A stretch of 64,000 nt of DNA from positions 310,001 to 374,000 of the forward strand of contig NZ_SNUJ01000001.1 of the NCBI RefSeq assembly GCF_012027395.1, in the 5' to 3' direction. Each line of letters begins with the position of its first letter. Position 1 is the first letter of the stretch. Positions 24,983-41,445 of the stretch are shown here, one piece after another. The notes under the pieces are model-generated. The model searched no databases. It was given only the letters and a program-made list of their open reading frames with translations, and was not told where the DNA came from. The position numbers were made by a program, and so were the translations under genes. The stretch is from Thermococcus sp. LS1 (GTDB lineage: Archaea; Methanobacteriota_B; Thermococci; Thermococcales; Thermococcaceae).

Positions 24983-25510
24983 TCAGTACTCGACCCCCCT
25001 CCTCGCAAGGATGCCCCTCTGATAGGGGTGCTTTATCTCCCTCATCTCGGTGACGTAGTCAGCTAACTCGAAGAGCTCCTCCGGGCAGTAGCGGCCGGTG
25101 ATGACGAGCTCGGTGTGGGGTGCTTTGCTCTTAATGAGCTCCTTGACTTCCTCGACGTCGAGCATGCCGAAGCCCAGAGCGACGCAGAGCTCATCGAGGA
25201 TTACCAAGTCCCACTCTCCGCTCGAGACAACTTCCTTCGCGCGCTGAAGGGCTTTCTTGGCAGCTTCTATGTCGTCGGGCTCGGGTTTGCCGTGGACGAA
25301 CTTCGGTAACCCAAAGGACTCTATGACCGCCCCGCACTCTGCTATCTTCTTCTGCTCTCCGTAAACGTTCCCGGCCTTCATGAACTGGAGTATTATCACC
25401 TTCCCACCGGAGCCGAGCATTCTCACCGCGAGGCCAAAAGCGGCCGTCGTCTTCCCCTTTCCGTTGCCGGTGTATATGTGAACTAAGCCAAGCTTGTCTT
25501 TCCAGGCCAT
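24983..25510 (-). CDS. cobA: cob(I)yrinic acid a,c-diamide adenosyltransferase
   Basis: The enzyme adds the adenosyl group of ATP to corrinoid cobalt in making or salvaging adenosylcobalamin. The 175-residue product has the Walker A loop YTGNGKGKTTAAFG at about residues 13-26, VILQFMKAG, DLVILDELCVAL (Walker B) and VITGRYCPEELFELADYVTEM. It is of normal length for the CobA/CobO/BtuR family. It is the last core gene before the accessory island. Confidence 0.94.
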   Translation of the reverse strand: MAWKDKLGLVHIYTGNGKGKTTAAFGLAVRMLGSGGKVIILQFMKAGNVYGEQKKIAECGAVIESFGLPKFVHGKPEPDDIEAAKKALQRAKEVVSSGEWDLVILDELCVALGFGMLDVEEVKELIKSKAPHTELVITGRYCPEELFELADYVTEMREIKHPYQRGILARRGVEY

Positions 25511-25611
25511 GTGGATTCACCGGGTGGATATAATCGCCAGGGTTTTTAGGGGTTTGGATGAAAGTGGTAAGATTAATGCATCTCCACCAAAATGTGAGCC
25601 TCCAGACCCTG

Positions 25612-26619
25612 TCACTTCGCGTTTCTTTTCACTTCCAGGGCAATGTTCACTCCTGTGGCTTTCGCAAGCTCATGGAACACAGCAACTGCCCTATTCCCAT
25701 CTTCGGGGAGATATAAATACCAGTTCCCGATCTTCGCAACCGCATTCCAGTACTTTTGGGAAACAGTGGGAGCTTTTGAGAGATATTTTCCAATTACCGG
25801 AAAGTCCTTCACTCCCATATCCAGCAGGAAGCGCACCACGACAGAGGTAATACTGCTCCAGGTGAGTTTGAGTCCTCTCCACCTCTTTCCATGACTTATC
25901 TCAACTCTGTACCACTTGCCATTAATTTGGACAAACACTGCCGTTGGGGTATACCCCCTTAAATCTCTTCCAATAAGCTCTTCCACAGCAACTGCCGAAG
26001 GTGGCAACTGGACTTCGCGGGCTGAGACGTAGAGGGTTCTGAAATTGTGATCCTGAGCTGAGGGTAACCTCTGGAGTATTGGCTTCTGTATCACTGGGAC
26101 AGACACTTGGGTGGGTATCCTTGAGTATTCAGATGGAATGTCCCGATAATTAGTAATTTTCTCCTTTGAGAACCAGCGGAGCCTCTCGATGGCTTCCTCT
26201 GTGCTCTGGTTCATTAAGTCCACAGCAAGAATAATTCTTTCATCAACAGGTTTGTACTCCTCAAAGGCATTTATTAAGGCCCACTGGAGGCCATTCGTCA
26301 GGATTCCAATCCTAATTCCCTTGTCGAAACAGTATCCGGCAAGCTGTCTCGCGTGTTTTGAGTTAATCCTCCCGTCCCTGAAGATTCTCTCCTTGACACT
26401 CTTCGCTTCGAGAAACGCAACGATTCTGCCGTTTATCATAATGGCATAATCTGGCCGGCCCTCCTCTGTGCTGGTCTCGGGCATGACCTCATCCGGATCA
26501 AAGACGTCCCAACCAAGGGCCATAAGGATTGGCAGGATTAAGTGTTGTTTTGTGGACTCCTCGTTAGGGATTTTACCGCTAATCTTTTTGACCCTTTCAA
26601 TGATTTCAAGCAAATCCAC
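25612..26619 (-). CDS. HsdR_N-like restriction endonuclease-domain protein
   Basis: A GTG at 26619 with GAGAGGTGGTACT before it gives 335 residues; an upstream ATG at 26643 has no such site. The N-terminal 150 residues match the type I restriction R-subunit nuclease domain (HsdR_N): ESTKQHLILPILMALGWDV, then the PD-(D/E)xK core GRPDYAIMING...AFLEAKS. No helicase domain follows. The C-terminal 150 residues (GRDLRGYTPTAVFVQINGKW, then a helical region) are unrecognised and may bind DNA. It is the first gene of the island, divergent from the methyltransferase operon. Confidence 0.78.
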   Translation of the reverse strand: MDLLEIIERVKKISGKIPNEESTKQHLILPILMALGWDVFDPDEVMPETSTEEGRPDYAIMINGRIVAFLEAKSVKERIFRDGRINSKHARQLAGYCFDKGIRIGILTNGLQWALINAFEEYKPVDERIILAVDLMNQSTEEAIERLRWFSKEKITNYRDIPSEYSRIPTQVSVPVIQKPILQRLPSAQDHNFRTLYVSAREVQLPPSAVAVEELIGRDLRGYTPTAVFVQINGKWYRVEISHGKRWRGLKLTWSSITSVVVRFLLDMGVKDFPVIGKYLSKAPTVSQKYWNAVAKIGNWYLYLPEDGNRAVAVFHELAKATGVNIALEVKRNAK

Positions 26620-26679
26620 AGTACCACCTCTCTTGCCCAACATTCCTTATCGGCAGAAGACAAATCAAAGTTGAAGGGG

Positions 26680-27132
26680 TCAAACCCCTGCCCTCTTCAA
26701 AATCTCCCTATACTCGTCCTCTTTGATGTATCTTCCCGAGACCGCGATGAACCGCTTCGGCTTGACGACCTTCGGGTACTTCCGTATGTTCTTCAGCTTG
26801 ACCACCATCCATGGCCTCGGCCTTCTTCCCCTTGAGTGCCACTTCGCCCTGTCGCGCTCGTACTTTCTGAGCTCCTCTGGAGTGAGGAAAAGCTCGTCTT
26901 TGTACTTCTTGATAATATCCTCAACATTCGTGAAGTGCTCGACGCTCTCGACCTCTGCCTCGCCGTGCCAGCCCTGATCCTCGTGGGAGGCATAAAAGAC
27001 CAGCTTCATGCCTGGTTTGAGCCTGAGCGTTGAAGGCTTGACGAAGACAGTCTTTCCCTCATCGAGTATTCGCTTCAAAAGCGGCCTCGGCACGGGGAAG
27101 GTTGCACCGATGACCTCTTCACTCCTTGTCAT
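26680..27132 (-). CDS. DUF365 protein, PUA-superfamily fold
   Basis: The start at 27132 has GGTGAAAACG before it and gives 150 residues. The sequence (VIGATFPVPRPLLKRILDEG, GMKLVFYASHEDQGWHGEAEV, then a basic segment RGRRPRPWMVVKLKNIRKYP) matches DUF365, which is related to the ASCH/PUA/EVE domains that bind RNA or modified bases. It lies 60 bases upstream of the HsdR_N-like gene in the same direction. It may be core rather than part of the defence set, since DUF365 is widespread in archaea. Confidence 0.75.
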   Translation of the reverse strand: MTRSEEVIGATFPVPRPLLKRILDEGKTVFVKPSTLRLKPGMKLVFYASHEDQGWHGEAEVESVEHFTNVEDIIKKYKDELFLTPEELRKYERDRAKWHSRGRRPRPWMVVKLKNIRKYPKVVKPKRFIAVSGRYIKEDEYREILKRAGV

Positions 27133-27222
27133 CGTTTTCACCGAAGGTACTTCAGCCCTAATCCTTAAGGGATTTACTGCCCAAATGAGTCGTAACGTTA
27201 AAAAGACGCGGGAGAAGAGGAA

Positions 27223-27798
27223 TTGGGGTTTGCCACAGTGGGACAGGGAACCCTAATAATTGCCATTGACAAAGAAGTTTCAGCCGTCGCAATAATTAGT
27301 GTGCCGTACCAATACCTCGATAAAGTCACGGACGAGTTCTCTGAAATCAAACACATAAAAGAGATGGAGGGCAACAGGGACAAATACCTGAAGGAGTACT
27401 TCAAACCCATTCTGGAAAAAGTTCTGGACAAGTATCCCATTGAGATCAGGTATTACCTCAAGGTCGACCATTACTTCTGGGAGGACCTTGAATATCTCTC
27501 CAAGTGGGGACTCGAACTCATCGTGGACGACGGCCTGTGGACAGCCGTGAAGGACAGGTTCGGGGGTACTCAAGTATCACTTGTTAAAGAGGGAGAGATA
27601 AGAAAGCGCATTCGAGAGCTCAAGAAAAGACTCAGGGAAGCAAAGCGGAGGAAAGACACATTGGAAGAAGATGAAATCATGAGAGAGCTAAAAATCGAAA
27701 GAAGGAGACGCATCTTAATAACGATCGCCGACAATTACCTCCACTTGAAAAAGCGTGGTATTGGTCCCATACGCAGACAGAAGAACAGAAAACATTAA
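27223..27798 (+). CDS. unrecognised protein with charged C-terminal helix
   Basis: The frame opens at a TTG (27223, with GAGAAGAGG before it); a GTG at 27238 is the alternative start. The 191-residue product has an N-terminal beta-strand-rich part (GQGTLIIAIDKEVSAVAIIS) that could be an RNase H-like or nuclease-like fold, a middle helical part, and a long basic coiled helix from about residue 125 (IRKRIRELKKRLREAKRRKD). The tail ends GIGPIRRQKNRKH. No family is recognised. It stands just upstream of the defence operon, in the same direction. Confidence 0.6.
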   Translation: MGFATVGQGTLIIAIDKEVSAVAIISVPYQYLDKVTDEFSEIKHIKEMEGNRDKYLKEYFKPILEKVLDKYPIEIRYYLKVDHYFWEDLEYLSKWGLELIVDDGLWTAVKDRFGGTQVSLVKEGEIRKRIRELKKRLREAKRRKDTLEEDEIMRELKIERRRRILITIADNYLHLKKRGIGPIRRQKNRKH

Positions 27799-28025
27799 AA
27801 GCGACAGAAACCGCCTGCTCCACCGCCCCCTCATACCCCATTCCGGGGTCGTGACGGGGAACAGGCGAGAGATTCTCGTTAACGTTACTGTCTCCAGTCC
27901 CATTTAGGGTGAATCCCCTAATAAAGATTTCGTCTGTGACTATACTTAGGGCGTTACCCGATGTATCGCCCATTATCAAAAGGTATTTATTGCAGGGCGT
28001 GTTAAATTGCCCGGGTGTGAATAAC
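27799..28025 (+). promoter_or_regulatory. leader and promoter region of the methyltransferase operon
   Basis: This 227-base gap holds no gene. A TATA-like GGTATTTATTG (27982-27992) lies 34 bases before the ATG at 28026, and GGGTGTG forms a weak ribosome binding site. Upstream are a short hairpin CCCCATTCCGGGG (near 27836) and the palindrome GTTAAC. These could be operator sites but are not distinctive. Confidence 0.5.
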
Positions 28026-31000
28026 ATGGAGAGGAGATTCATCGAAAGCCCCCGGTTTCCAATCTGGGAGGTCAATGAAAAGAGCCTCAAAGAGAAGGGC
28101 CCGGCAAGGCCGCCGTACTGGGAGATGGTCTTTTACTGGACAAGAAAGCCCCTCATCGGGGCGAGGGCCGTTATCGCCGGTGCACTCCTGCCGGAGGAGA
28201 TTGACGAGAACCGCTTTAAAACTCTCATCGGCTTAAATGAGAAAACCCCTCATCGCGTTAACCCAAAGATTCCCGCAGACCTTGAGAAATACTTCAGGGG
28301 CAAGAAGCTCCTCGACCCCTTCGCGGGCTTTGGTTCAATACCGCTCGAAGGCCTTCGCCTTGGCCTCGACGTCACCGCTGTGGAACTTCTGCCCACGACT
28401 TACGTCTTCCTCAAGGCCGTTCTCGATTATCCGAAAAAGTTCGGAAAGCCCCTCGTGAAGGACGTGGAGAAGTGGGGCAACTGGATTACCGAGCAACTCA
28501 AAAACGACCCCGAAATCAGGGAGCTTTACGATGAGGACGTCGCAGTTTACATCGGCACCTGGGAGGTGAAGTGCCCCCACTGCGGCAGATGGACGCCGGC
28601 AATCGGAAACTACTGGCTCGCCCGCGTAAAGGACAGCAAGGGCTACAAGAGGCTCGCCTACATGAAGCCCGAAAGGAAGGGTGATGAGATCGAGATAAGG
28701 GTGATCGACCTCAACGAGATACTCGGCGATGTTTCGAAGGCGAAGGTGGACACGAAAGCAGGGGAGATTGTCTTTGAGAGCGAGGTTTATGTTAAGAAGG
28801 TGGAGAAGGCAATCAGGGCTGGGAAGCTGAAGGACGACGACGTGAGGATGAGCGGAGATAAGGTCATCTTCAAGGTTCCCCACGCCAACATTGAAGCGAG
28901 AAAGAGCCAGCTCACCTGCCTCGCCTGCGGGAACATCATAAAGTACGCCGATGAGGAGGGCAGGCACTACACGGAGAGGGTCAAGGGCAACAACGAGTTC
29001 TACGTGAAGTTCGCTTTGAAGAAGTACCACGAGGGAGACGAGCGCTTCGCCCGCCAGAGGCTCCTCGTGAAGGTGAAGGTCAAGGACAGGGACTTAATTT
29101 TCGAGCCCGCCAGCAGAGAGGACAACGAGAAACTGTGGAAGGCGAAGGAGAAGGTCAAAGAATTGCTGGAGAAAAAGGACCCGGACGTGCCGATTGAGAG
29201 TATCCCTCTTTACGAAAACCGCCGTATCACTCCAATACTCAGTGCGGAAAGATGGTACCAATTCTTCAACCCCCGCCAGCTCCTCACGCTGATTAAGCTC
29301 GTGAGGCTCATCCGCGAGGTGGGCAAGCGCGTTGAGGAGGAGAAGCTGGAGGAGGGCTGGGGCGAGGAGAGGGCCTTCGAGTACGCGGAGGCGGTGGCGA
29401 CGTACTTGAGCATGGCAATGCTTCGTAGCATGGCATATTCCAACGCAGTAAACACATGGACATCTTCAACGGGTTTTGGGTCTCCACTTGCACTAAAACC
29501 CACAACTGCTCTTCTCAACAGAGGAATCTCGATGAATTGGAACTGGTGTGATACTAATTTTACATATCCATTTGCAGGGAGCTTTGTGAGAGCATTGGAA
29601 GTTATGATGAGGTCCCTCAACTACCTCACCACCGCCCTCGCTCCCTCTTCCCAGAAGACCCTCACCGAGTTGGAGACCAACACGGTGAAAGTTCTCCAGG
29701 GCGACGCGACCTCCCTCGATCTCGGTGAGAAGTTCGACGTCATCGTCACCGACCCGCCGTACGCTGATGATGTCCCCTACACCGAGCTGAGCGACTTCTA
29801 CTACGTCTGGCTCAAGAGGGCCTTAAGCGACTCCGACGGGAGGAAGCTTGTCCCAAGGTTCCATAAGACGGCCTTCTTCAAGAAAATCGGACCGAAATGG
29901 GTTGAGATTAGGGCACAATGGAAAGAGTTTGGGAAAAAGGAAGTCTCATATAACCCCGGAAGATTCGCAGAGAGAAATGACAGAAACGAATTTGCACAGC
30001 AGCACTTTGAGAACCTTTTCAGCCAGGCCTTCGTGGCGATGAGGGAGCACCTCAAGGACGGCGGAATCATCGTTACGTATTACGCCCACACCGACCCGGA
30101 GAGCTGGGCGAACCTCATCGAGGCCGGCTGGAAGAGGGCGAAGCTCCAGATAACGAGGGCGATTCCAATCGGCACGGAATCAAAGACGAGCATTGTGAGC
30201 AGGGGCAAGCTCAGCCTCGACACCTCAATCGTCGCGGTCTGGAGAAAATCCGCCGGAGAGAGAAAGCAGGTTCAAATCTCTGTCCTCAGGAGTGAGATGG
30301 ACGCCAGGGCCAGAGAATCTGCCAGGGAGTTCATCAGGTACGGTTACGCCGGCCTCGACCTGCTTTACGGCGTCATGGCCGCTGTGCTTGAAGAGGTGAC
30401 GAAGTACGGTGAGGTGCTCTCGCCGAAGGGCCCGCTCCCGACTAAGGAGCTCCTCAACGATTACGTTTACCCTGCAACGATAAGGGGCATCATCGAGGCC
30501 ATCGCGGAAATTGAGGAGGGGCAAAGGATAACCTCAAACGAGGCGGTCTTTTACACCGCATACAAGGTGCTCTTTGGCAACAAGACCCTCAAACCCAACG
30601 ACATAATACTCCTCAACCTCGCGACCTTCACCGATTCCAACGGCCTCATAAAGGCGGGAGTGTTAAAGGGGAAGGGCTCGGCCAGCAAGAAGGAGTTTAC
30701 CCTTTACACCCCCGACCTCCTCGGGAAGAAGGCCCTCGATGCCAAGGAGCTCCAGAAGTTCCTCTATGAGAAGGGCCTCAATCCTCTTGAGCCAGAGCCG
30801 AGGAACGCGATTGACGTCCTCCAGCTCCTTGAGTACCATGCATTACTTGGAAAATCCCGCCTTGAGGAGGTTATCGAAAAGCTCAGGAGAAAGTGGAGCG
30901 CTGAAGTTGAGGAAGCCCTCACGATTGCAAGGCTCGTGAGCGAGTATTACACCGCCGTTTACGGCCAGCTCCTGGCCCCGTTGGGTGGCAAGATAAAGGC

Positions 31001-31100
31001 CGGTGAGCGCGATATTGAGAGGGAACTCGAAAAGGACGGCCACTTTGAGGTTCTCCTCATGAGGAGGCTCGTCAGGTACGTTAGGGGTGAAGGACTATGA
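28026..31100 (+). CDS. DUF1156 DNA methyltransferase of a defence operon
   Basis: This 1024-residue protein starts MERRFIESPRFPIWEVN, the DUF1156 signature. Methyltransferase motif I is LLDPFAGFGSIPLEGLRLG at about residues 95-113, while the catalytic DPPY motif (VTDPPYADDVPYTELSDFYY) is at about 575. The 460 residues between include two zinc-binding pairs (CPHCGRW, CLACGN) and should hold the DNA-recognition part. It likely makes an adenine- or cytosine-amino methyl mark on host DNA. The stop overlaps the ATPase start by four bases. Two inner stretches (29410-29610 and 29880-30010) are AT-richer than the rest. Confidence 0.88.
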   Translation: MERRFIESPRFPIWEVNEKSLKEKGPARPPYWEMVFYWTRKPLIGARAVIAGALLPEEIDENRFKTLIGLNEKTPHRVNPKIPADLEKYFRGKKLLDPFAGFGSIPLEGLRLGLDVTAVELLPTTYVFLKAVLDYPKKFGKPLVKDVEKWGNWITEQLKNDPEIRELYDEDVAVYIGTWEVKCPHCGRWTPAIGNYWLARVKDSKGYKRLAYMKPERKGDEIEIRVIDLNEILGDVSKAKVDTKAGEIVFESEVYVKKVEKAIRAGKLKDDDVRMSGDKVIFKVPHANIEARKSQLTCLACGNIIKYADEEGRHYTERVKGNNEFYVKFALKKYHEGDERFARQRLLVKVKVKDRDLIFEPASREDNEKLWKAKEKVKELLEKKDPDVPIESIPLYENRRITPILSAERWYQFFNPRQLLTLIKLVRLIREVGKRVEEEKLEEGWGEERAFEYAEAVATYLSMAMLRSMAYSNAVNTWTSSTGFGSPLALKPTTALLNRGISMNWNWCDTNFTYPFAGSFVRALEVMMRSLNYLTTALAPSSQKTLTELETNTVKVLQGDATSLDLGEKFDVIVTDPPYADDVPYTELSDFYYVWLKRALSDSDGRKLVPRFHKTAFFKKIGPKWVEIRAQWKEFGKKEVSYNPGRFAERNDRNEFAQQHFENLFSQAFVAMREHLKDGGIIVTYYAHTDPESWANLIEAGWKRAKLQITRAIPIGTESKTSIVSRGKLSLDTSIVAVWRKSAGERKQVQISVLRSEMDARARESAREFIRYGYAGLDLLYGVMAAVLEEVTKYGEVLSPKGPLPTKELLNDYVYPATIRGIIEAIAEIEEGQRITSNEAVFYTAYKVLFGNKTLKPNDIILLNLATFTDSNGLIKAGVLKGKGSASKKEFTLYTPDLLGKKALDAKELQKFLYEKGLNPLEPEPRNAIDVLQLLEYHALLGKSRLEEVIEKLRRKWSAEVEEALTIARLVSEYYTAVYGQLLAPLGGKIKAGERDIERELEKDGHFEVLLMRRLVRYVRGEGL

Positions 31101-34100
31101 GGCTCGGTTCCTTTGAGGTCTGGGACGACGTGATGGATGAGGCCCTCGACAAGCAGGTGGCCCCGGAGCTCGGGGACGTTGTGAGCGGAAACGCCCCTGA
31201 GATATACACCGACTCAAGGGAGTTCTTCAGGAGGACTTATTTCACCGACTCGATGCTCGAAATCATCGGCAAGCTCGTCGAGACCCTCGAAGGCGGTGAG
31301 AGGCACAACATCTTCCTCATTTACTCCCTCTTCGGCGGCGGTAAGACCCATACACTCCTCACCCTTTACCACGCCTTCAAAGAGCCGGATGCGATGCTTG
31401 ACCCTGAGGTTCTGGCCGGCCACGACCCTGAGAAGAGGGAGAAAATCAGAGGTCTGGCGGAGAGGATAAAGGCCCTTGGCGGTGTTAAAATCGTCCCAGT
31501 TTACGGCAAGGGCAGGCTCGGCCAGCCGAGCAAGCCCCTTGAGGTCGGGCCGTACAGGGTGAGAACCGTCTGGGGTTACATCGCCCACGCCCTCGGGAGG
31601 TATTACATCGTCGAGAGGGACGACGAGAATGCCACGGTTCCGGAGATTGACACCCTGAGGGAGCTCTTCAGGGGAGAGAGGGTAATCCTTCTCGTTGATG
31701 AGATCGTGGATTACTTCGACAACCTTTACAACTCGGGGAGCGAGGACGACAGGCGTTATGCCAAAAACGTGGATAACTTCTTTGACAGGCTTTCCACGGC
31801 CCTGCTCGGCTCCGGAAGCGCGATGGTCATGACGCTCCCGATGGAGAAAAAGGAGGGCATGTTTGAGGTCGAGAAGGAGTACAACAGGGAGGTCGTCATG
31901 GCCATCTGGGGCGCCGTCAGCAGGGTCGGCGGTTCCGAGCTTTACTCCCCGCTGAGGACTTCTGGAGCGGGCAACGAGCTCGTTGAGGTTCTCAAAAAGA
32001 GGATTTTCAAAGGAGTTGACGACGAGGAGAGGGTTAAGACCCTGACCAGAATGCGCTCGGAGCTTAGCAACACCGACGTCTTCGGCCATGCGCATAACCT
32101 TGAGGACGAGCTCCGGAGGAGTTACCCGTTCCACCCGGAGTACGTGGACGTCCTCAGAACGATAATCGAGAGGACCGGCCTTCAGAGAACGAGGGACATG
32201 CTCAGAATCACGAGAATCGTTGTAAGGGAGCTGGTCAGGAGATACACCGAGACGGGCTTTGCCCCCTCGATGATAATGCCCCACCACATTGACCTCAAAC
32301 ACGAGAAGCTGAGGGGCATGCTGTTCGGCAAGAGCGAGACCTTCATGGATTACGCCACCATCGTTGATACCGACATTGAGAGGGACAAGTTCAAGGACTT
32401 CACCAACCCGGGACTTGCGGAGATAATTCTCAAGTACGTCTTCCTGAGGACGTATCCCTTCGACTCGCCCGTTCCCCTGCCGGGTTTCCCAACGGCTGAC
32501 TCCATCGCGAGGGGTGTTTACGAGCCGAACGAGTTTGACGCCAACAGGTGGCTCCCAACGGACATTGGTGATACCGTTGAGGAGATAACGGCAAGCGTCC
32601 GCTTTGTGTATCTCAACAAGAAGGACAAGGTTCTCTGGTTCTGGCGCGTCGCCAATGTGGCCCAGATGGTGGACAGCAAGGCCAGGGAGCTCCTCGAAAT
32701 GAGGCCCGGTGAGGTGTGGAACGAGCTCGTCAAGTACGTGAACAGGATGGTCAAGGAGAGAAAGAGCCTCACCTCAACGAGGGGGAAGGGGGCAAAGATT
32801 GAGGATCACGTGACGTTCTTTAAGGAGCAGTACATCATCGTGGCGAAGGACCCGCAGGAGTTCCACGACACTCCTGATTACAAGCTCCAGGTGCTCGTGA
32901 GGGACGACGTTGATGAGAGAACTCTGAGGAAGCTGATTTACGCCTATGGAACCGGTACGAGGACGTACAGGAACACGGTCGTTGTCTGTTATCCAGTTGA
33001 GGGAAGCTTTAAACCTCTCCTTGAGACGACGGCGAGGATAATGGCGTGCGATGAGGTCATCAGGGACATCGAGGTCAAATACGGCAAGTTTGGAGAGGAA
33101 GTCGTCAAGATACAGATGAACATGGTGAAGGACATTAGAGGCAAGGCCCTCGAAGACCTTGAGACTCAGATTGTGAACTCCTTCAGAGGGGTGGCTTATC
33201 CAGAGGACGATGAGGTTCGCGTCACCAAGGCCCCGTCCAGCTCAAAGTCAGTCGTTGAGAACGTTTACTCCGCTTTGCTCAGCAAGGGCAAGATCGTGGA
33301 CGAGTTCGACTTTGACTGGCTCGTGGAGACCCTCAGGGGCGTTGGTGTGGAAGTTCTGAGGCCCGAAGGATACAGGGTCTCGGAGCTCATCGCCATAATA
33401 AGAATGAACACGCGCCTGCCAATGATTGAGGACAGCCACATTAGCGAGGCCATAAAGAACGCCGTTCTCGACTTGAGGATCGGCCTTGAGCGCGATGGGG
33501 AAGTGTTCTTCAAGAAGGTTCACAAAGAGGTTCCAAGCTCTGAGGAGGAGGGTAACCCGCCCAGTGCCGTTAAGCCGAGGGACCTAATCCTGCCGAGGGA
33601 GGCCGCCCTTCACAGGCAGGTCTGCAATCTGCTGAAGAAGGAGAAGGATTTAATCGTGCCCAGGGGGGACAAGGACTTCAGGGTGAAGACGTGGTACGAG
33701 GTTTATTCGCCATCATCGGAGATTGGAATTCCGTTGAAGAGCCTCGTAACTGGAGGGGAGGACTGCAAGGTAAAGGACGAGTATTTCGACATGGTTCTCT
33801 GGGGCCACATTGTTGAGAGGAGAAAAGAAGTGCCCGCAGATTGCGAGTTCGATCTGAGTGTCACAGTGTATCAGATATCAGGAAAACCAGGGACGAACGT
33901 GTCAAATGAAATTGTGATAAGACCATACGGAGAGATGCCGTTCTCTTTAGAGCTAACAACTGACTATGGAAGACTTGAACCCAACGAAGTTAGGTTTGAG
34001 AATCCCCAGGAGACTAAAGAAGTAACGGTAACCTGGTACGGCACCATACCTGAACATTCAACAACAGTAACAGTAATAGGAAAGAGTTGCGAGGGGAAGC

Positions 34101-34516
34101 AGAATCCCGTGAAACACGAAGTGAGCTTTAGACTTGTTCCTGAGGTGGATCCCTGTGAGTTTGAAACAAGAGAACTAAAAGAGGAATACATAAACACAAC
34201 CAAGCTGCTCCTTATCAGAGAGCTCAGGGACTTGGAAGCACTAACATCCATGCCAGACACTTTAACTGGCCATATAACCGGAGAACTTGAGATTGCCAAG
34301 TCCGATGGCGTTTACTGGGAAAGTGAATTCGAGAACATCGAGAGAGAAGTCTTTGTGTACATGGTCAGGGAAATGGAAGAATTCTTTGAAGCAAAGGCAG
34401 AGATTAAGGTAAAGTTCTCCCTTCAGGAGCCCCCCATCCTCGATGATATTCTCTTCGAGAAACTCAAAATCCTGAACGGCAAAGTTGTCTTCAAGCTCAG
34501 GAAGGAGGAATGCTGA
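31097..34516 (+). CDS. DUF499 P-loop ATPase of a defence operon
   Basis: The 1139-residue protein begins MRLGSFEVWDDVMDEAL. It has a Walker A loop YSLFGGGKTHTLL (lysine 83) and Walker B VILLVDEIVDYFDN near residue 200, as in DUF499 ATPases found beside DUF1156 methyltransferases. Residues about 905-1020 form an immunoglobulin-like beta domain (DLSVTVYQISGKPGTNV...FENPQETKEVTVTWYG), in DNA visibly richer in A and T than the first 2.7 kb. Translation is coupled at both ends (ATGA with the methyltransferase, TGATG with the next gene). It probably powers or gates the complex. Confidence 0.88.
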   Translation: MRLGSFEVWDDVMDEALDKQVAPELGDVVSGNAPEIYTDSREFFRRTYFTDSMLEIIGKLVETLEGGERHNIFLIYSLFGGGKTHTLLTLYHAFKEPDAMLDPEVLAGHDPEKREKIRGLAERIKALGGVKIVPVYGKGRLGQPSKPLEVGPYRVRTVWGYIAHALGRYYIVERDDENATVPEIDTLRELFRGERVILLVDEIVDYFDNLYNSGSEDDRRYAKNVDNFFDRLSTALLGSGSAMVMTLPMEKKEGMFEVEKEYNREVVMAIWGAVSRVGGSELYSPLRTSGAGNELVEVLKKRIFKGVDDEERVKTLTRMRSELSNTDVFGHAHNLEDELRRSYPFHPEYVDVLRTIIERTGLQRTRDMLRITRIVVRELVRRYTETGFAPSMIMPHHIDLKHEKLRGMLFGKSETFMDYATIVDTDIERDKFKDFTNPGLAEIILKYVFLRTYPFDSPVPLPGFPTADSIARGVYEPNEFDANRWLPTDIGDTVEEITASVRFVYLNKKDKVLWFWRVANVAQMVDSKARELLEMRPGEVWNELVKYVNRMVKERKSLTSTRGKGAKIEDHVTFFKEQYIIVAKDPQEFHDTPDYKLQVLVRDDVDERTLRKLIYAYGTGTRTYRNTVVVCYPVEGSFKPLLETTARIMACDEVIRDIEVKYGKFGEEVVKIQMNMVKDIRGKALEDLETQIVNSFRGVAYPEDDEVRVTKAPSSSKSVVENVYSALLSKGKIVDEFDFDWLVETLRGVGVEVLRPEGYRVSELIAIIRMNTRLPMIEDSHISEAIKNAVLDLRIGLERDGEVFFKKVHKEVPSSEEEGNPPSAVKPRDLILPREAALHRQVCNLLKKEKDLIVPRGDKDFRVKTWYEVYSPSSEIGIPLKSLVTGGEDCKVKDEYFDMVLWGHIVERRKEVPADCEFDLSVTVYQISGKPGTNVSNEIVIRPYGEMPFSLELTTDYGRLEPNEVRFENPQETKEVTVTWYGTIPEHSTTVTVIGKSCEGKQNPVKHEVSFRLVPEVDPCEFETRELKEEYINTTKLLLIRELRDLEALTSMPDTLTGHITGELEIAKSDGVYWESEFENIEREVFVYMVREMEEFFEAKAEIKVKFSLQEPPILDDILFEKLKILNGKVVFKLRKEEC

Positions 34517-35046
34517 TGGAGGGCAGCGTCGAGTACCAGGTGAATCTCAAGTACATCAAGAAGGCCTTCCTCCCAGTAACGCGGGAGCAGAAGCTCGCCG
34601 AGTTCGTGCCGGTGTTCAACGTTATGGGTGCAGGGGAGCAGAAAAAAGTCCCGGGAAAAGTCGAAGCAAGGGCGAGGGTGTACCTCCCCGAATTTCTCAA
34701 TTTTGCCAAGAAGCTGGGGTTTAAGGTCGAAGCAAACGAGAGTCTCCTGAAGTGGCTGAACCTGCCGCCGTCAAAGAGGGAACGGCTGGAGTACAGCGGG
34801 AACAAGCGGATAATCCTGAGAACCAGCGATGATTATGCTTACCTTCGCCTGATGGTTTATGGCGTCGTTATGGCGGTTCTTAAGACGCCGGCGGAGTGGG
34901 GCCAGCTTGAGGAATATGTGCTCGCAATGGAACCGATACAGCTTCGCTTCTGGGCTTCAAGGTTCAAAAACACTTATTGGAAGTACAAGAACCGGAGGAA
35001 GCTTGATTACCTCGCAAGACGCTTCCTGGAGGTGGAGTGGGTTTGA
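34516..35046 (+). CDS. unrecognised small subunit of the defence operon
   Basis: The ATG at 34516 shares a base with the DUF499 stop and has GGAGG seven bases before it, better placed than for the ATG at 34510. The 176-residue product (MEGSVEYQVNLKYIKKAFLP...) is basic at the C-terminus (RFKNTYWKYKNRRKLDYLARRF), with a region KLGFKVEANESLLKWLNLPPSKRERLEY that looks like a helical DNA-binding part. No named family is recognised. Its place between ATPase and helicase, with coupled translation, makes it a likely fixed subunit. Confidence 0.75.
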   Translation: MEGSVEYQVNLKYIKKAFLPVTREQKLAEFVPVFNVMGAGEQKKVPGKVEARARVYLPEFLNFAKKLGFKVEANESLLKWLNLPPSKRERLEYSGNKRIILRTSDDYAYLRLMVYGVVMAVLKTPAEWGQLEEYVLAMEPIQLRFWASRFKNTYWKYKNRRKLDYLARRFLEVEWV

Positions 35047-38042
35047 GTGAGGACATTAAGGGAGCCATTCTGGGGGACGTTCTCCTCCACAGTCCTGCAC
35101 TGTTTTACACCGCCCTAACCGCTCCGGCGAGGAGGCCAATAACCCCGTTCAAGCATCAGTTCCAGCCCCTTTACCACGCCATGATCTCCCGGCCGGTAAG
35201 GATACTCATCGCCGACGAAATCGGGCTGGGGAAGACAGTCCAGGCGCTGGCCATTGCGAGGTATCTTCAGCTGAGGGGTGAGGCCAAGAGAATCCTTGTC
35301 CTCGTGCCGAAGATTCTCCGCGAGCAGTGGAAACAGGAGATAAGAAGGGTTGGGGGCTTTCCAACCGTAATCGAGAACGGTCGCGAGGTCGAGAGCAAGC
35401 TGAGGAACACGTACGGATACACGGTCGTCTCAATTGATCTTGCCAAGAGGTCTCCCCATCGCGAGAGGTTCCTCGATATTAAGTGGGACTTGATAATCGT
35501 TGATGAGGTTCACAACGTTACCCTCGGCACCCAGAGGTACGAGTTCCTTAGGGCCCTTGTTGAGAAGGGCGGAGGGGACCTCAACCTGATTTTCCTTTCC
35601 GCGACGCCCCACCGGGGCAATCCCAAAGATTATCTCGCAAGGATTGCCCTCCTTGACCCGACTCTTACCGACCAGTATCAGAAACTTGACAAGCCGGGTT
35701 TTTACAGCAAAACTCGGGATACGCTCGTCATGAGAAGGACCAAAAAGGTCGTCAACGAGCTTGAGGGTAGGGAAGTCTTCAAGAAGTGTTATTTTGGGGC
35801 AGTTGTCGTTGAGATAAGCGACGCTGAAAGGGCCTTTTTCGATAAGCTCGATAAAGCACTCTTCGAGATGATAAAGGGTGCCAGGGAGAATTCTCCAGAG
35901 GCCCTTCTCGCGGTTCTTGTCAGGAAGAGGGCTTCATCGAGTTATGAAGCGGCGGTAAAGACAATCAGTAAGATTGCTGAGAGTGCAAACTCTGAAGGGA
36001 GCGGGAAGGCAGAAAAGGTTAGCAAATACATTAAAAGTCTCTTTGGCCTCGGTTATGATGAGATTGAGCTGGAGGACTTCAACGAGCTTGACGATGCCGT
36101 TGAGAAGATAATCGAGGAGTACTCGCCTTTGCTCGACAGGAAACAGGTGGAGTCATTCAGGGGACTTCTTGAGTTAGCAAAGCAAATCAAAGAGAGGGAC
36201 AGTAAGCTCCAAATGGTGGCGGAGATTGCCGCGTATCATATCAGGCAAGGGGAGAAGGTGATAATCTTCACGGAGTTCAAGGACACGCTGGAATACATAA
36301 AGCGGAAGCTTCCCAAGATTCTGGCCGACGAGTACGGCGTTAGGCTGGAAGGCCGTGAGATTTCCTTCCTTTACGGGGGAATGTCGAGCAGAGAAGTGGA
36401 AGAACAGATGGCCAGGTTTGAGCAGCATGGGAAACTTTTAATCTCAACTGACGTTGCCTCCGAAGGTTTGAACCTCCAGATTGCCAGCGTTGTCATAAAT
36501 TACGAGGCTCCATGGAGTCCGATAAAGCTCGAACAGAGGGTCGGGAGGATATGGAGGCTCAGTCAGCCGAGGGAGACAACCGCTTACACCCTGTTCCTGG
36601 CGGCAGAGACCGACCTGTACGTTCTGGAGAACCTTTACCAGAAGATTATGAACATAACTGAAGCCATTGGAAGTGGGCCACGCCTTGGCAAGCCGGTTTT
36701 CGGAAAACAAATGTTCTCTGGGGATTTTGAGGCACTGTGGAAGGAAGAAGCCTCCGAAGGGGGTGCCAAGGGAGAAGGGCCTTCCGAGTATGACCTTGTG
36801 ATTGCGTCAATAAAGAGGGAACTTACAGGTTACGCTGGTGCAATAATACACACCCTGAAGAGTCTCCGACAGAACATTGAGAAAATGATTCCTTCTGACA
36901 CAGCAAAGCAGGTTCAGGAGGAGCTTGAGCATATACTCACTCCGAGAGACTTTGACAGGGACGCGGTCTCCGAAGTGCTGAGGGCTTATCTCACTGAGGT
37001 TCTTGGGAAGAGGAACATTCCCGAAATTTCCCCGATTCTTCATGGTGTCGTTAAGGAAGGCCCCTCAAGCCTAATGCCAATGAAGATTGGTGTTAAGGGC
37101 AGGGATGGCGTTGAATACCTTTATTTTGTAAGGTTAGTTGACGAGAAAGATGGCCGGGAGTTCCATCGTTATCCTGTCCTCGTAAGGAGGAACGGGGGGA
37201 AGCTTGAGTTCCTTTATGGCGTTGACCTGTTGAAGCACCTTATTGGGGTGTTCTCGCAGGAGTTCGTTGTTATTGGCCGGCCCGAACCCACCATGGAAGA
37301 GCATTTAATATCTTCCCAGCTCAGGACGCTCGCAAGGGACGGTTTTTACAGGCCCAGGACAAAGTACAGAAATTACGAGCGGGCATTTTCAAGGGGCAAA
37401 CTGAAGAAGGGGCGCCTCTTCAAGAACACGAAAATTGAGACAACCGAGGTACTAAGGATCGAGGGCATCAGCGAGGAGAGGTTCAACATACTAAAGTATG
37501 TTCCCAGTGGGATTCTCGACGTTTATGGGCTCTCGGAGAAAGACGTGGAACCGCCCACCGATGAATACAAGCGCATAACCGAGAGGAACTTCGTGCCCCT
37601 GGAGGATATCCTGAAGAGCGAACGGAAGGCGATGGAGATCGTCATGGAGCTTGAGAAGAAAAGGTTGGAAAAGAAGTATGGCCCCGGTGGAGGCTGGGAA
37701 GTCAAAGACGTCTCATTGAAGGAACATTATGACATCAAGGTCGTTGAGCCCGAGGGAGAAAGGTACATTGAGGTTAAGGGTCACAAGCCGCTCCTGCTTA
37801 CGGCAGAGGTCACCCCTGCGGAGTATGAATTCGCGACGGACTCCAAAAACGTTGATAAGTACTGGATTTATATCGTCGCAAACCTCGGAAAGAAAAAGCC
37901 GGTCATATTGAAGGTTTTCAGGCCTTTTGAGAGGGATGCCAGGGTTTATGCAGTCCTCGAAGATGGGAAGGAAGTTGAGATTACCGGAAAGGTCAGCGTC
38001 AACATTGAGAACAAGATTCGAAAGGTGCTCTCGGTGGGGTAA
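35037..38042 (+). CDS. SNF2/RapA-type helicase with C-terminal DUF3883 domain
   Basis: About 1000 residues. Helicase motifs are complete: ADEIGLGKTVQALAIA (Walker A), IIVDEVHN (DExH), FLSATPHRGN, IIFTEFKDTLEYI and TDVASEGLNLQ...LEQRVGRIWRLSQ. The C-terminal 120 residues match DUF3883, a PD-(D/E)xK-like domain, with GERYIEVKGHK near residue 900. It should move along or unwind DNA and may cut it. The GTG at 35037 lies only two bases after GGAGGTG, so the TTG at 35043 is a real alternative start. It overlaps the preceding stop. Confidence 0.9.
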   Translation: MGLSEDIKGAILGDVLLHSPALFYTALTAPARRPITPFKHQFQPLYHAMISRPVRILIADEIGLGKTVQALAIARYLQLRGEAKRILVLVPKILREQWKQEIRRVGGFPTVIENGREVESKLRNTYGYTVVSIDLAKRSPHRERFLDIKWDLIIVDEVHNVTLGTQRYEFLRALVEKGGGDLNLIFLSATPHRGNPKDYLARIALLDPTLTDQYQKLDKPGFYSKTRDTLVMRRTKKVVNELEGREVFKKCYFGAVVVEISDAERAFFDKLDKALFEMIKGARENSPEALLAVLVRKRASSSYEAAVKTISKIAESANSEGSGKAEKVSKYIKSLFGLGYDEIELEDFNELDDAVEKIIEEYSPLLDRKQVESFRGLLELAKQIKERDSKLQMVAEIAAYHIRQGEKVIIFTEFKDTLEYIKRKLPKILADEYGVRLEGREISFLYGGMSSREVEEQMARFEQHGKLLISTDVASEGLNLQIASVVINYEAPWSPIKLEQRVGRIWRLSQPRETTAYTLFLAAETDLYVLENLYQKIMNITEAIGSGPRLGKPVFGKQMFSGDFEALWKEEASEGGAKGEGPSEYDLVIASIKRELTGYAGAIIHTLKSLRQNIEKMIPSDTAKQVQEELEHILTPRDFDRDAVSEVLRAYLTEVLGKRNIPEISPILHGVVKEGPSSLMPMKIGVKGRDGVEYLYFVRLVDEKDGREFHRYPVLVRRNGGKLEFLYGVDLLKHLIGVFSQEFVVIGRPEPTMEEHLISSQLRTLARDGFYRPRTKYRNYERAFSRGKLKKGRLFKNTKIETTEVLRIEGISEERFNILKYVPSGILDVYGLSEKDVEPPTDEYKRITERNFVPLEDILKSERKAMEIVMELEKKRLEKKYGPGGGWEVKDVSLKEHYDIKVVEPEGERYIEVKGHKPLLLTAEVTPAEYEFATDSKNVDKYWIYIVANLGKKKPVILKVFRPFERDARVYAVLEDGKEVEITGKVSVNIENKIRKVLSVG

Positions 38043-38284
38043 TTTACCTCATTTCCTTTTATTCCCAATTTTTGTCTCAAAATTCCAAACGGTTTTATAA
38101 AAACGTTCGAATTTTTGAGACTTTGAGACCATCAGAGAAACGTGACCGTTTATGATTATTCGAACATTCATAATTCGTGTGATTGTGTCATGGCATCTTC
38201 GATAAAAAGTGAATAATATCTTGGCATTTAGCGAACCAAAAAGGTTATTTATTCCAGGATTGTAAACCATACTGGTGGGTTTAG
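38043..38284. promoter_or_regulatory. AT-rich gap with nested inverted repeats and two TATA boxes
   Basis: No gene is supported in these 242 bases. GTCTCAAAA (38074-38082) and TTTTGAGAC (38114-38122, followed by a second TTTGAGAC) flank a TATA-like GGTTTTATAAAA near 38091. GTTCGAAT (38106-38113) is mirrored by ATTCGAAC (38159-38166). A second TATA-like GGTTATTTATT (about 38242) lies some 40 bases before the next start and probably serves it. Confidence 0.5.
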
Positions 38285-38548
38285 ATGGACCTTGGAAAGA
38301 TGGTTTTCGCTTTTATTGGGCTCGGGACAACACTGTTTTTAGCATTTAGTGTCCCGAGTATTGAGCAGGTGATTTACAATGCTTTTACACCCCTCGTATT
38401 TCAAGCTTCTCAAGAAATTCAGGCATACGATTGGTCAACTGCATTTCTCATCAAAGCAACTTGGATTCTTGTGGGAGTGTCCGTGATTATTTTGATTGTA
38501 ACTCCAATAAGGGACGCACTTATGGAGCTTATATCTTCGCTGGGGTGA
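38285..38548 (+). CDS. small membrane protein in the defence island (first of two)
   Basis: This 87-residue protein has two hydrophobic segments (VFAFIGLGTTLFLAFSVPSI and TWILVGVSVIILIVT) joined by a polar loop, and ends with a helix DALMELISSLG. GGTGGG precedes the ATG. The next gene starts two bases after its stop, also a membrane protein, so they are a pair. No family is recognised; small paired membrane proteins occur in archaeal plasmids and proviruses and as effectors of defence systems. Confidence 0.65.
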   Translation: MDLGKMVFAFIGLGTTLFLAFSVPSIEQVIYNAFTPLVFQASQEIQAYDWSTAFLIKATWILVGVSVIILIVTPIRDALMELISSLG

Positions 38549-38549
38549 T

Positions 38550-38828
38550 ATGATGGATGCCCTGGAACCCCTTGAACAACTTGCTGAGACTTTTGACGTA
38601 CTGAGTAAGATGCTTCTTGAAATGGCCCTTCCAAGCGCACAGTTCATAATCGCGCTGGCTTTTTATGGCGTTGTATTGTATCTTTGGAATATCTTGGGAG
38701 TGACGCCTAATACCCCATTTTACAGTGTGATGGTGAGTCTCTCCAGTGCCATTTGGGTCGGAATTGGTTTATTGGGACTTGCAGGTACATTATCTGCGTT
38801 GAGGCATCTGGAAGAGCTTCCATTCTAA
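38550..38828 (+). CDS. small membrane protein in the defence island (second of two)
   Basis: This 92-residue protein has an acidic N-terminal helix (MMDALEPLEQLAETFDVLSKM) and two to three membrane segments (FIIALAFYGVVLYLWNILG and SSAIWVGIGLLGLAGTL). The ribosome binding site GGGGTGAT overlaps the end of the previous gene; ATG at 38550 or 38553. It is cotranscribed with its neighbour. Function unknown. Confidence 0.65.
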   Translation: MMDALEPLEQLAETFDVLSKMLLEMALPSAQFIIALAFYGVVLYLWNILGVTPNTPFYSVMVSLSSAIWVGIGLLGLAGTLSALRHLEELPF

Positions 38829-38879
38829 TGACAACTTATTTATCCTTTGACGTTCTTATTCTCTGGTTGGGTGAGTGGA

Positions 38880-39311
38880 ATGAAGTACTGGCTCTGCATC
38901 ACCAACCGTGCGAACTGGGAGGTTGTCAAGAAGAAGAACGTCTGGGGAGTCGCGAAGAGGCATAAAAACACCATCGCCAAGGTTAAACCGGGCGACAGGC
39001 TCGTCTTTTACGTCAAGCAAGAGAGGAAAAACAAAGAGGTTTTAGAGCCGAAGATTGTGGGCATCTTTGAGGTCGTTAGTGAGCCTTACACAGATTCAAG
39101 CAGAATCTTCAAGAGTCCTCCCCACCTTAACGAGACTTACCCGTTGAGGGTGAAGGTTAAGCCAATAAAGCTCGGCGAGCTCGACTTCAAGCCGCTCATT
39201 CCAAAGCTGAAGTTCATCACGAACAAGAAGCGCTGGAGTGGCCACCTGATGGGCAAGGCCATGAGAGAACTGCCAGAAGAGGACTACAGGCTGATTGAAG
39301 GCTTGCTTTGA
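38880..39311 (+). CDS. EVE-domain protein
   Basis: The start at 38880 has GGTGAGTGGA before it. The 143-residue product [24 protein letters not shown]...[11 protein letters not shown] is a single EVE domain of the PUA superfamily, close in form to the solved Pyrococcus protein PH1033. EVE domains bind modified bases and often accompany restriction systems. A TATA-like CTTATTTATCC (about 38836) gives it its own promoter. It may be core or part of the defence set. Confidence 0.85.
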
Positions 39312-39351
39312 GCCGCCTCAATCTCTTCGCCAACTTTTTGTGAACGGTTCA

Positions 39352-39373
39352 GTGTAAGGCAAATGCCTTACAC
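39352..39373. repeat. 22-base palindrome, copy 1
   Basis: Perfect arms GTGTAAGGCA and TGCCTTACAC around a central AA. The same arms occur at 40259-40280 around TT, so the two copies are reverse complements of each other. Both are preceded by TTCA. Such symmetry suits a dimeric repressor site. Confidence 0.75.
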
Positions 39374-39698
39374 CAGCACCTCCAAGGGTACACTTTTGTA
39401 CACCCACTTAAAAAGGGGCTTTCTGGGCGCTCGTTTTACCCCATTGTTGTGCCACAAACCGCCCGGCGTGGTCGCCCAAGAATTATGGGAAAGCGCTTTA
39501 TCACGCTTTTCATGAGACTTTTTGTTTTCATACTGTTTTTCAGCCAATCTGGGCTGTCTCATGTCTTCTTTTCAGAGCTTGATTTAGTGAACGTACAAGT
39601 TTATGCGTTTCATTTTTTGCAACTCGCGTTTAAATGCAAGAATTATTGAAAACAGAGGAGTAAAAAGAAGGGCGAAGAGGGCTTCTTTTGTCAGCCGC

Positions 39699-39753
39699 GA
39701 GTTATCAAAATTGATAACTCAAGCCCTTGACGAGTTATCAGATTTGATAACTC
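39699..39753. promoter_or_regulatory. twin palindromic operators
   Basis: Two 22-base palindromes, 39699-39720 and 39732-39753, share the arms GAGTTATCA and TGATAACTC around short A/T centres. Their centres are 33 bases apart, about three helical turns, which allows cooperative binding on one DNA face. They lie about 90 bases before the next supported start (39843). Confidence 0.7.
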
Positions 39754-39842
39754 GGGTCAAATTCAATTTTCTTAATGACTTCGCTCGGTGGTCATGGGTT
39801 AATTTTAATTGCTCACACCCTCGCTGGGGAGTGGTGGTAAGG

Positions 39843-40232
39843 ATGGAAGATGTAACGACCGTGCTGTACGGAATCTTCAACGAAATTAGGGTCATGAAGC
39901 TGGAAGAGGTCAATAAAAAGGTGGCTGTGACTTTGGCTGGGCCTTTGGGCGAGCTTGGGGTGCCGGAAGAATTCTGGAGGGAGGTCTACTCCCTGCTGAT
40001 GGGGGCTTATGAAGACCGTGAGGCCCTCCTTGATGCCAGGGGCCTCTTCAATTACGTCCTTGATGACTTTGTTGGGAGGGGGTTGGTTGATACGGAGAGT
40101 GCTCTCAAGCTTCGGGTATTCGTTGATTACTTCGAGGAAGTGCTGTTCCCGAGGAGGCGGGACTGTGTGAGGGTGCCTTCCGCAATTGCCCTTGAGGTGT
40201 TTTTCATCCTCGCTTACGGCGAGGCGGACTAA
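39843..40232 (+). CDS. orphan acidic protein of unknown function
   Basis: The ATG at 39843 has GGTGGTAAGG before it. The 129-residue product (MEDVTTVLYGIFNEIRVMKLEEVNKKV...) is helical and acidic with no membrane segment or known motif; it ends VFFILAYGEAD. The frame extends upstream through the twin palindromes, but that part lacks a start signal. Between an EVE gene and a CcdA/CopG-like gene, it probably belongs to mobile DNA. Confidence 0.62.
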   Translation: MEDVTTVLYGIFNEIRVMKLEEVNKKVAVTLAGPLGELGVPEEFWREVYSLLMGAYEDREALLDARGLFNYVLDDFVGRGLVDTESALKLRVFVDYFEEVLFPRRRDCVRVPSAIALEVFFILAYGEAD

Positions 40233-40258
40233 TGCCCTTTTATTATTTTTGGCTTTCA

Positions 40259-40280
40259 GTGTAAGGCATTTGCCTTACAC
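40259..40280. promoter_or_regulatory. 22-base palindrome, copy 2, upstream of CcdA/CopG-like gene
   Basis: Arms GTGTAAGGCA and TGCCTTACAC around TT. It lies about 20 bases before a TATA-like TTGTTTAAATC (about 40297) of the next gene, a fitting place for an operator of that ribbon-helix-helix protein. Confidence 0.65.
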
Positions 40281-40340
40281 CGGTTTCTGCGTGCGAAAGT
40301 TGTTTAAATCAGAGTTCTCCACTCTTTTTGGTGCCAGGCT

Positions 40341-40631
40341 ATGGGACCTGACACGGGTATTTACACGTGTATTTACACGGGTGATGTACAGAAACGTTCA
40401 AAGAAGCGGAGTGTTACCGTGACAATCCGGGCTGATTTGGTGGAGTTTGCGAAGAGAGAAGGCATTAACATGTCGAAGTTGCTTGAAGAAGCCTTGAAAG
40501 CGTTTTATTCTGGGAGAAGCGTTGTTCTGGGGCCGGGGCCGGGATTTGAACCCGGGCTAGGGGATCCACAGTCCCCTGTGCTGACCAGGCTACACCACCC
40601 CGGCCATGTCCAGCTAAACCTTTTGAGTTAG
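40341..40631 (+). pseudogene. CcdA/CopG-like antitoxin gene running into tRNA-His
   Basis: The frame starts MGPDTGIYTC (GGTGCC before ATG). Its core KKRSVTVTIRADLVEFAKREG then INMSKLLEEALKAFY is a ribbon-helix-helix antitoxin fold of the CcdA/CopG type. After about residue 62 the frame continues straight into the tRNA-His gene on the other strand (GPGPGFEPGLGDP...), so the natural C-terminus is missing. No toxin gene follows. This looks like a gene cut by recombination at the tRNA 3' end; a short functional repressor remains possible. The start region holds a tandem GTATTTACACG repeat. Confidence 0.6.
40531..40605 (-). tRNA. tRNA-His (anticodon GTG)
   Basis: On the minus strand the acceptor stem is GCCGGGG with CCCCGGC, the anticodon arm GGGGA-CTGTGGA-TCCCC (anticodon GTG). 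The extra G at position -1, the tRNA-His mark, is encoded at 40605. The discriminator C (40531) is followed by CCA (40530-40528). Its 3' end faces the accessory island. Confidence 0.96.
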
Positions 40632-40746
40632 CTTTATAAAGTTTTCGTCAGAACGGGCTGAAAGAGGGAGCTGAGACCTTTTACATTCAATAACCGAACT
40701 CAGAGGAGAGATTGAAAACCGTCAAACCACATAGGGAGGTTTCGAG

Positions 40747-41445
40747 ATGAAAGCCAAGAGAGAAGCGCTCGCGAGCCTCTTCACGGCCATAAATGAGGGT
40801 AAAGTCGACGAAGACATAATAGACCTCCTCCTTCTCATCAACTCGATAAAGGGCATCTACACCACATCCTCCTGCTCGGGGAGGATTGGAATCATCGAGG
40901 AGCCGACCCTGGGGGCAAAGCCCCTCTCCCGCTGGCTGATGAAGGCCCACAGACTCATAGAATTTGAAGAAGCAAAAGAAGCCCTGAAAAATGCCAAAGA
41001 GGGGATCATCTTCCTCAAGAGCCAGCCACCCATCTTCCACGTCGTTGCCGAAGACCTTGAGAAGGCAAAGAAGCTCCACGAGCTAGGCTTAGCTTCAGGC
41101 TTCAAGTATACAACATTCAAGGTCATTTCAAAGCGCTACCTCGTTGAGATAAACGCCACCGAATACCTTACCGCTCCCCTTGGAAAGAATGGAAAGGTCC
41201 TGGTGGACGACGAATACCTCCGCTTTGCAATCGAGATCGGCAACGAGATGCTGAAGCGCTCAAAGGGCAGGCTCCCCCGCCTTGAGGAGAACTTCAGAAA
41301 GCTGAGGAAAGAGCTCGGAGAAGACGAGCTGTTCTACGAGATGGCCTCCAAGTACATGATAGACTACTCCAAAATCATTACAGTCGGGATGCTGAATCGG
41401 AGGGTGGAAAATCTGAGAAAAGGGATGGAATCTCTGGGGGAATAA
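40747..41445 (+). CDS. taw3: wybutosine-pathway tRNA-Phe methyltransferase Taw3
   Basis: Taw3 (TYW3 in eukaryotes) methylates N4 of the demethylwyosine base at position 37 of tRNA-Phe. The 232-residue protein has the family marks TSSCSGRIGI (about residues 40-49), LGAKPLSRW and the later VEINATEYLTAPLG. It begins MKAKREALASLF with GGAGGTTTCGAG before the ATG. It is the first core gene after the accessory island and converges on the lipoate ligase gene. Confidence 0.93.
   Translation: MKAKREALASLFTAINEGKVDEDIIDLLLLINSIKGIYTTSSCSGRIGIIEEPTLGAKPLSRWLMKAHRLIEFEEAKEALKNAKEGIIFLKSQPPIFHVVAEDLEKAKKLHELGLASGFKYTTFKVISKRYLVEINATEYLTAPLGKNGKVLVDDEYLRFAIEIGNEMLKRSKGRLPRLEENFRKLRKELGEDELFYEMASKYMIDYSKIITVGMLNRRVENLRKGMESLGE

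Follow-up and report, generated by a model that had tools for sequence, protein, structure and literature searches.

Operons in which a DUF499 ATPase is combined with a DNA methyltransferase (MTase) and a helicase have been described under several names. A study of 2020 introduced an archaeal COG1743-DUF499-SWI2/SNF2-nuclease operon core accompanied by EVE (PMC7641849), the name helicase-methylase-ATPase (Hma) comes from PMC8565338, and a 2026 survey in NAR names the group DUF499-centred BREX-related (BR) (PMC12839542). Type-1 BR systems (the "Hma" of PADLOC and the type of PMC7641849) comprise three core genes only, with a helicase that carries an N-terminal TUDOR domain and a C-terminal PD-(D/E)XK nuclease. 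Type-2 BR systems consist of DUF499, DUF3780, DUF1156 and a helicase with an N-terminal HKD/PLD nuclease and without TUDOR. Standalone DUF3780, a four-stranded sheet with five helices, occurs in 98% of Type-2 taxa and was proposed to replace TUDOR (PMC12839542). PglZ is the marker of Type-3 BR systems and of BREX, in which PglX is the specificity factor for methylation and defence alike (PMC11341690).

The window analysed here, 64,000 nucleotides from Thermococcus sp. LS1, contains at 28026–38042 of the forward strand an operon of four overlapping, co-directional genes, in which the feature set of the BR group (DUF499 ATPase, DUF1156 N6-MTase and SNF2 helicase) is united in one locus. The features of the operon and its downstream neighbour are:

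28026–31100, + strand: DUF1156 N6-adenine DNA methyltransferase of the COG1743 type (Pfam DUF1156 PF06634, E=8e-9; PADLOC MTase_II, 1489 bits)
29403–29645, + strand: hypervariable segment of the MTase target-recognition region, residues ~460–540 (~15–50% identity per 20-residue block between operons that are otherwise ~90–95% identical)
31097–34516, + strand: DUF499 AAA+ (ORC/Cdc6-like) ATPase with Walker A GGGKTH and Walker B VDE (Pfam DUF499 PF04465, 1076 bits)
33764–34513, + strand: C-terminal module of DUF499, residues 890–1139, exchanged in LS1 (43% identity to relatives that are themselves 84–93% alike)
34516–35046, + strand: fourth subunit of 176 aa without a named family (AlphaFold: four-strand sheet, then five helices; 19/19 synteny)
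35037–38042, + strand: SNF2/Swi2 helicase with motif I as early as residue 60 and neither a TUDOR nor a PLD extension at its N-terminus (Pfam SNF2 and Helicase_C)
37620–37901, + strand: NOV_C (DUF3883) nuclease of PD-(D/E)XK type that forms the tail of the helicase, D...ExK (Pfam NOV_C PF13020, E=8e-17)
38847–39311, + strand: EVE-domain protein of a modified-base reader family, an optional downstream partner (Pfam EVE, E=7e-25)

Translation of the region reproduces the coupling reported in an initial annotation of this DNA at all three junctions: an ATGA overlap between the MTase and DUF499 genes, TGATG at 34514–34518 between the DUF499 gene and the small gene, and a 10-base overlap between the small gene and the helicase gene. 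The start at 34516 is consistent with the starts of homologues of the small gene, and for the MTase the most likely start is 28026, judging from the MERRF start that is also present in its homologues. The domains named in the same annotation (DUF1156, DUF499, SNF2 and the DUF3883 tail) each have a Pfam match, which in the case of DUF499 spans nearly the whole ATPase, and the product of the third gene, described there as unrecognised, likewise finds no match in Pfam, NCBIfam, PADLOC or PHROGs. The MTase contains the SAM motif DPFAGFGS, the catalytic motif DPPY and, within the recognition region, a Cys4 zinc finger. These motifs, the zinc cysteines and the helicase motifs are conserved across 17 aligned copies, the NOV_C aspartate and EVK are present in 17/17 aligned helicases, and the DUF499 Walker motifs are conserved in 5/5 copies checked. 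Because of this conservation, the enzymes of the operon look active, as predicted from their intact motifs.

The operon is flanked by the EVE protein and by a DUF365 protein (26680–27141), which recur rearranged in relatives, and a stand-alone HSDR_N protein (type I restriction R-subunit N-terminal domain) is encoded nearby at 25612–26643. In several relatives the EVE gene lies no more than ~1 kb from the operon, and it also occurs beside an unrelated DUF499 system; an association of EVE with the archaeal DUF499 core has been reported (PMC7641849). In G080 (L044), the neighbours found at 24983–41445, from cobO to EVE/TYW3/tRNA-His, surround a different DUF499 system, and the region looks like a defence hotspot.

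The assignment to a helicase-methylase-ATPase defence-type operon of the DUF499/DUF1156 group holds; the name Hma, in turn, is only one of the names of this group, which is called BR in PMC12839542 and whose core was already contained in PMC7641849. The PADLOC Hma models match in part, with raw scores of 154 bits (HmaB), 139 bits (HmaC) and 179 bits (HmaA), and are surpassed by MTase_II (1489) and DrmD (236). The best match of the helicase is DISARM DrmD, but the score of 264 is far under the cut-off of 610. Among ten neighbouring ORFs, a Pfam scan detected no DrmA/B/C-type domains, so that the DISARM combination of a DrmD helicase with DrmA/B/C is not seen in this locus. Type-3 BR identity was rejected, as no PglZ was found in the 19 genomes that carry the system, in a search whose control was positive in two genomes. 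With BREX Type 1 the operon would share the logic that a methylase supplies specificity for defence too, but it has no PglZ, and its ATPase and methylase belong to other families.

With Type-1 systems, the LS1 operon has in common the MTase, DUF499, an SNF2 helicase with a C-terminal PD-(D/E)XK nuclease (here NOV_C) and an EVE gene nearby. It differs from them in gene order, in its separate clade, in the extra small subunit, which makes four genes instead of three in 19/19 genomes, and in a helicase without a TUDOR-sized N-terminus: motif I lies at residues 57–63 in the LS1 family compared to 125–152 in the six Type-1 helicases examined. With motif I at residue 60 there is no room for TUDOR in the LS1 helicase, the presence of TUDOR being judged from N-terminal length and from the survey (PMC12839542). 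Loss of TUDOR is shared with Type-2 systems, as is a small alpha+beta protein right after DUF499. Unlike Type-2 helicases, that of LS1 has no HKD/PLD nuclease at its N-terminus, according to Pfam and the position of motif I; its nuclease is the C-terminal NOV_C, and the small protein has no significant sequence match to DUF3780. A Pfam scan for DUF3780 gave no match, and neither did PF12635 in 115 genomes, a search in which the control set was silent too.

In phylogenetic trees of DUF499, the helicase and the MTase, which sampled Type-1 and Type-2 systems and whose comparison set is biased by plasmid collections, the LS1 family forms its own fully supported group each time, apart from the systems of both types. 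Because of this clade in three trees and the mixed features, we place the operon in the BR group as an archaeal variant in its own right that combines Type-1 and Type-2 features, within the Type-1 and Type-2 samples covered by the trees. Within the phyla searched, the system occurs in Thermococcales and Methanocaldococcus-type genomes, which agrees with the initial annotation in seeing a hyperthermophilic version with its own composition.

A search of the phylum (115 genomes) located the gene for the small protein in 14, invariably flanked by DUF499 and the helicase; one Methanocaldococcus MAG and four further genomes of its group also carry the gene. It occupies this position in 19/19 genomes with the LS1-type DUF499 clade (Thermococcales, Methanocaldococcus-type), and the set of 19 genomes encoding a full-length DUF499 relative (33–86% identity, or LS1 itself) coincides with the set that has the small gene; genomes from the same DUF499 search with distant matches only lack it. 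Given 19/19 genomes, this synteny is more than chance, and the view of the small gene as a fixed member of a neighbourhood conserved in other genomes is borne out. It also bears on the reading of the operon as an ordinary Type-1 BR/Hma system with the small gene as a passenger: DUF499, DUF1156 and SNF2 plus C-terminal nuclease are indeed common to both, but retention in every genome, even in G136 with a relative of 30% identity, clades of their own for all three large proteins and a helicase without a Type-1-like N-terminal region make this reading very improbable.

The position of the MTase is more variable. In G127 it is found ~93 kb away (loss of the MTase was rejected, as the gene is present elsewhere in this genome), while DUF499, small gene and helicase remain together, and extra genes sit between MTase and DUF499 in G026, G107, G128 and G149. 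The insert in G026/G107 comprises three genes (L042:14063–15914), and in the Methanocaldococcus-type loci a predicted ATPase of 342 aa is found at this place (L065:4639–5667, L066:4913–5941). The helicase gene is split into two frames in G050 (L033) and three in G149 (L065), where the MTase contains stops as well; either these copies have decayed or the assemblies contain errors. In G128, Cmr-like type III CRISPR genes, recognised by eye, follow immediately after the operon (L066:12931–20000).

The AlphaFold model of the small protein (pLDDT 83.8, pTM 0.83) begins with four strands and one helix, followed by a short strand and another four helices. A four-stranded sheet followed by five helices fits the description of DUF3780, and in the DUF3780 model (E-H-E-H-H-H-H; pLDDT 89.8) the elements succeed each other in the same way, counted from the final strand of the sheet, a likeness in the element order of two predicted models. 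Profile comparison by hhalign, with and without secondary structure, was not significant, and an identity as plain DUF3780 was rejected, HMM and hhalign being negative throughout. A fold search with the small protein and DUF3780 against PDB and viral models returned no structural match. Unexpectedly, a second candidate emerged from DUF499/DUF1156 loci of haloarchaea, cyanobacteria and rhizobia that encode PLD-type helicases: a different "hypothetical protein" after DUF499 in these loci corresponds to Pfam DUF7680, a family of which no mention was found in the literature searched. As in LS1, the DUF7680 protein lies directly or shortly downstream of DUF499, and its C-terminal helices align with those of the small family (hhalign E=7e-4, an E-value per single comparison, several having been made) with a score above 400/400 shuffled controls. 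In contrast to LS1, the helicase of these loci has a PLD-type N-terminus, and the LS1 small protein does not match the DUF7680 Pfam model, the relation being a distant, profile-profile one. The similarity of DUF7680 to DUF3780 is weak (18/200 block shuffles reach the score). By profile similarity, then, the small protein appears to be a distant relative of DUF7680 and, by its predicted fold, an analogue and perhaps a remote homologue of DUF3780.

The three small families (LS1 type, DUF7680 and DUF3780) share the place after DUF499, in each case with helicases without the Type-1 N-terminal region, and no such small gene follows DUF499 in five annotated Type-1 plasmid loci; this correlation between TUDOR and small protein spans few systems. 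The pattern agrees with and extends the idea that DUF3780 replaces TUDOR (PMC12839542). Because all three kinds of system without a TUDOR-type arrangement have a small protein after DUF499, the LS1 protein probably serves as an adaptor, structural or status-sensing, in place of the TUDOR absent from its helicase. If it instead acted as a regulator or immunity partner, restraining the nuclease-helicase like an antitoxin rather than working as a subunit, its tight coupling to the helicase gene with a 10-base overlap would be explained, and stand-alone viral copies would then keep the effector off. The analogous DUF3780 and DUF7680, however, adjoin the MTase instead of the helicase in their operons, adjacency to the helicase is not general, and a role as immunity partner is therefore rather unlikely.

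Which subunit reads the sequence can be addressed by comparing related operons. Among LS1, G037, G060, G101 and G050, residues 1–870 of DUF499 are 91–97% identical, the small protein 89–99% and the helicase 90–97%. MTase residues 360–560 of the same set are 49–61% identical in every pair, falling to ~15–50% in the blocks at 460–540. Strain-specific recognition would thus appear to be carried by the MTase alone, and by analogy to PglX in BREX the MTase is probably the sole sequence reader, from which restriction borrows its specificity; the argument for sole specificity covers five to seven related operons. The initial annotation had seen in the small protein perhaps a DNA-reading subunit; as a sequence-specific reader it would resemble HsdS. 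The protein is rich in basic residues with an alpha+beta fold in the AlphaFold model, and fusions of DUF3780 to modified-base reader domains occur in some cases (PMC12839542), but the LS1-type protein is too constant across operons whose MTase recognition domains clearly differ, and its variation is spread evenly along its length. A role in reading DNA sequence is accordingly highly doubtful. The C-terminal module of DUF499 (890–1139) is ~43% identical between LS1 and the others and 84–93% among the others, and was thus exchanged in the LS1 genome only. A specificity pair of MTase recognition domain and DUF499 C-terminus, for which the LS1 sequence taken by itself had seemed to speak strongly, was rejected, as G037, G060, G101 and G050 share one C-terminus despite different MTase domains; the module does not track the MTase domain and is therefore not its partner reader.

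The reading we favour, with a probability of roughly 60%, is a restriction-modification-like defence complex in which the MTase domain sets the specificity and the small protein is an obligatory DUF499-helicase adaptor that does the job of TUDOR. The DUF1156 MTase would mark host DNA at adenine N6, at sites set by its own recognition domain, and the sequence specificity of the restriction complex very likely derives from this domain as well. Going by their protein families, the DUF499 ATPase would assemble or scan on DNA at unmodified sites and recruit the SNF2 helicase, whose NOV_C tail would cut the DNA. The small protein might couple ATPase and helicase or sense the state of the DNA without reading its sequence. 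An obligatory adaptor is proposed because of the fixed position in 19/19 genomes and because DUF499, small gene and helicase are kept together in G127 despite the moved MTase. Counted against it are the missing DUF3780 profile match, the weak link between DUF7680 and DUF3780 and the lack of a structural match.

Members of the small families also occur in viruses. The IMG/VR contig L048, of a tailed virus, contains an intact small gene at 7403–7867 (46% identical) without the other three operon genes, just upstream of terminase genes and together with a resolvase, a Dam methylase and replication genes. A broken piece of the gene is found at the end (1–115) of the related contig L052, which carries tailed-virus structural genes. 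The viral copy had no match in a single-sequence search of genome contigs or among known phages, and tetranucleotides and a terminase search gave no decisive pointer to the host of L048. DUF3780 was found at 23 loci on viral contigs; at 18 of them further genes of the system lie close by, and five (L092, L096, L097, L098, L099) show no DUF499, MTase or helicase in the flanks fetched. L092 clearly comes from a phage: DUF3780 is followed there by terminase, portal and head protease genes. DUF7680 stands alone in 3/4 viral loci (L148, L149, L150), two of these being weak matches. Viral contigs are incomplete, and gene content was judged within the fetched flanks. The phage protein OrbA binds the BREX ATPase BrxC, which implies that defence complexes can be attacked at one subunit (PMC11580459). 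That a virus carries one subunit without the rest of the complex suggests, from the gene content of incomplete contigs, a decoy or dominant-negative inhibitor. A tentative generalisation, which we consider possible though not probable, is that DUF499 systems without TUDOR share a fourth-subunit superfamily (LS1 type, DUF7680 and DUF3780) that bacterial and archaeal viruses have repeatedly captured alone as a complex-poisoning decoy.

All three large proteins belong to the DUF499-centred BR/Hma group and are as such already known; what the operon adds is an archaeal lineage that stands apart and has a probably obligatory subunit of its own, in a group that ranks among the most widespread of the uncharacterised defence systems. 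Lone viral copies of the subunit families offer a way into counter-defence. The role of the methylase as the only sequence reader is testable by recognition-domain swap, for which Thermococcus provides genetically workable hosts, and the near-identical operons with different recognition domains represent natural swap experiments.
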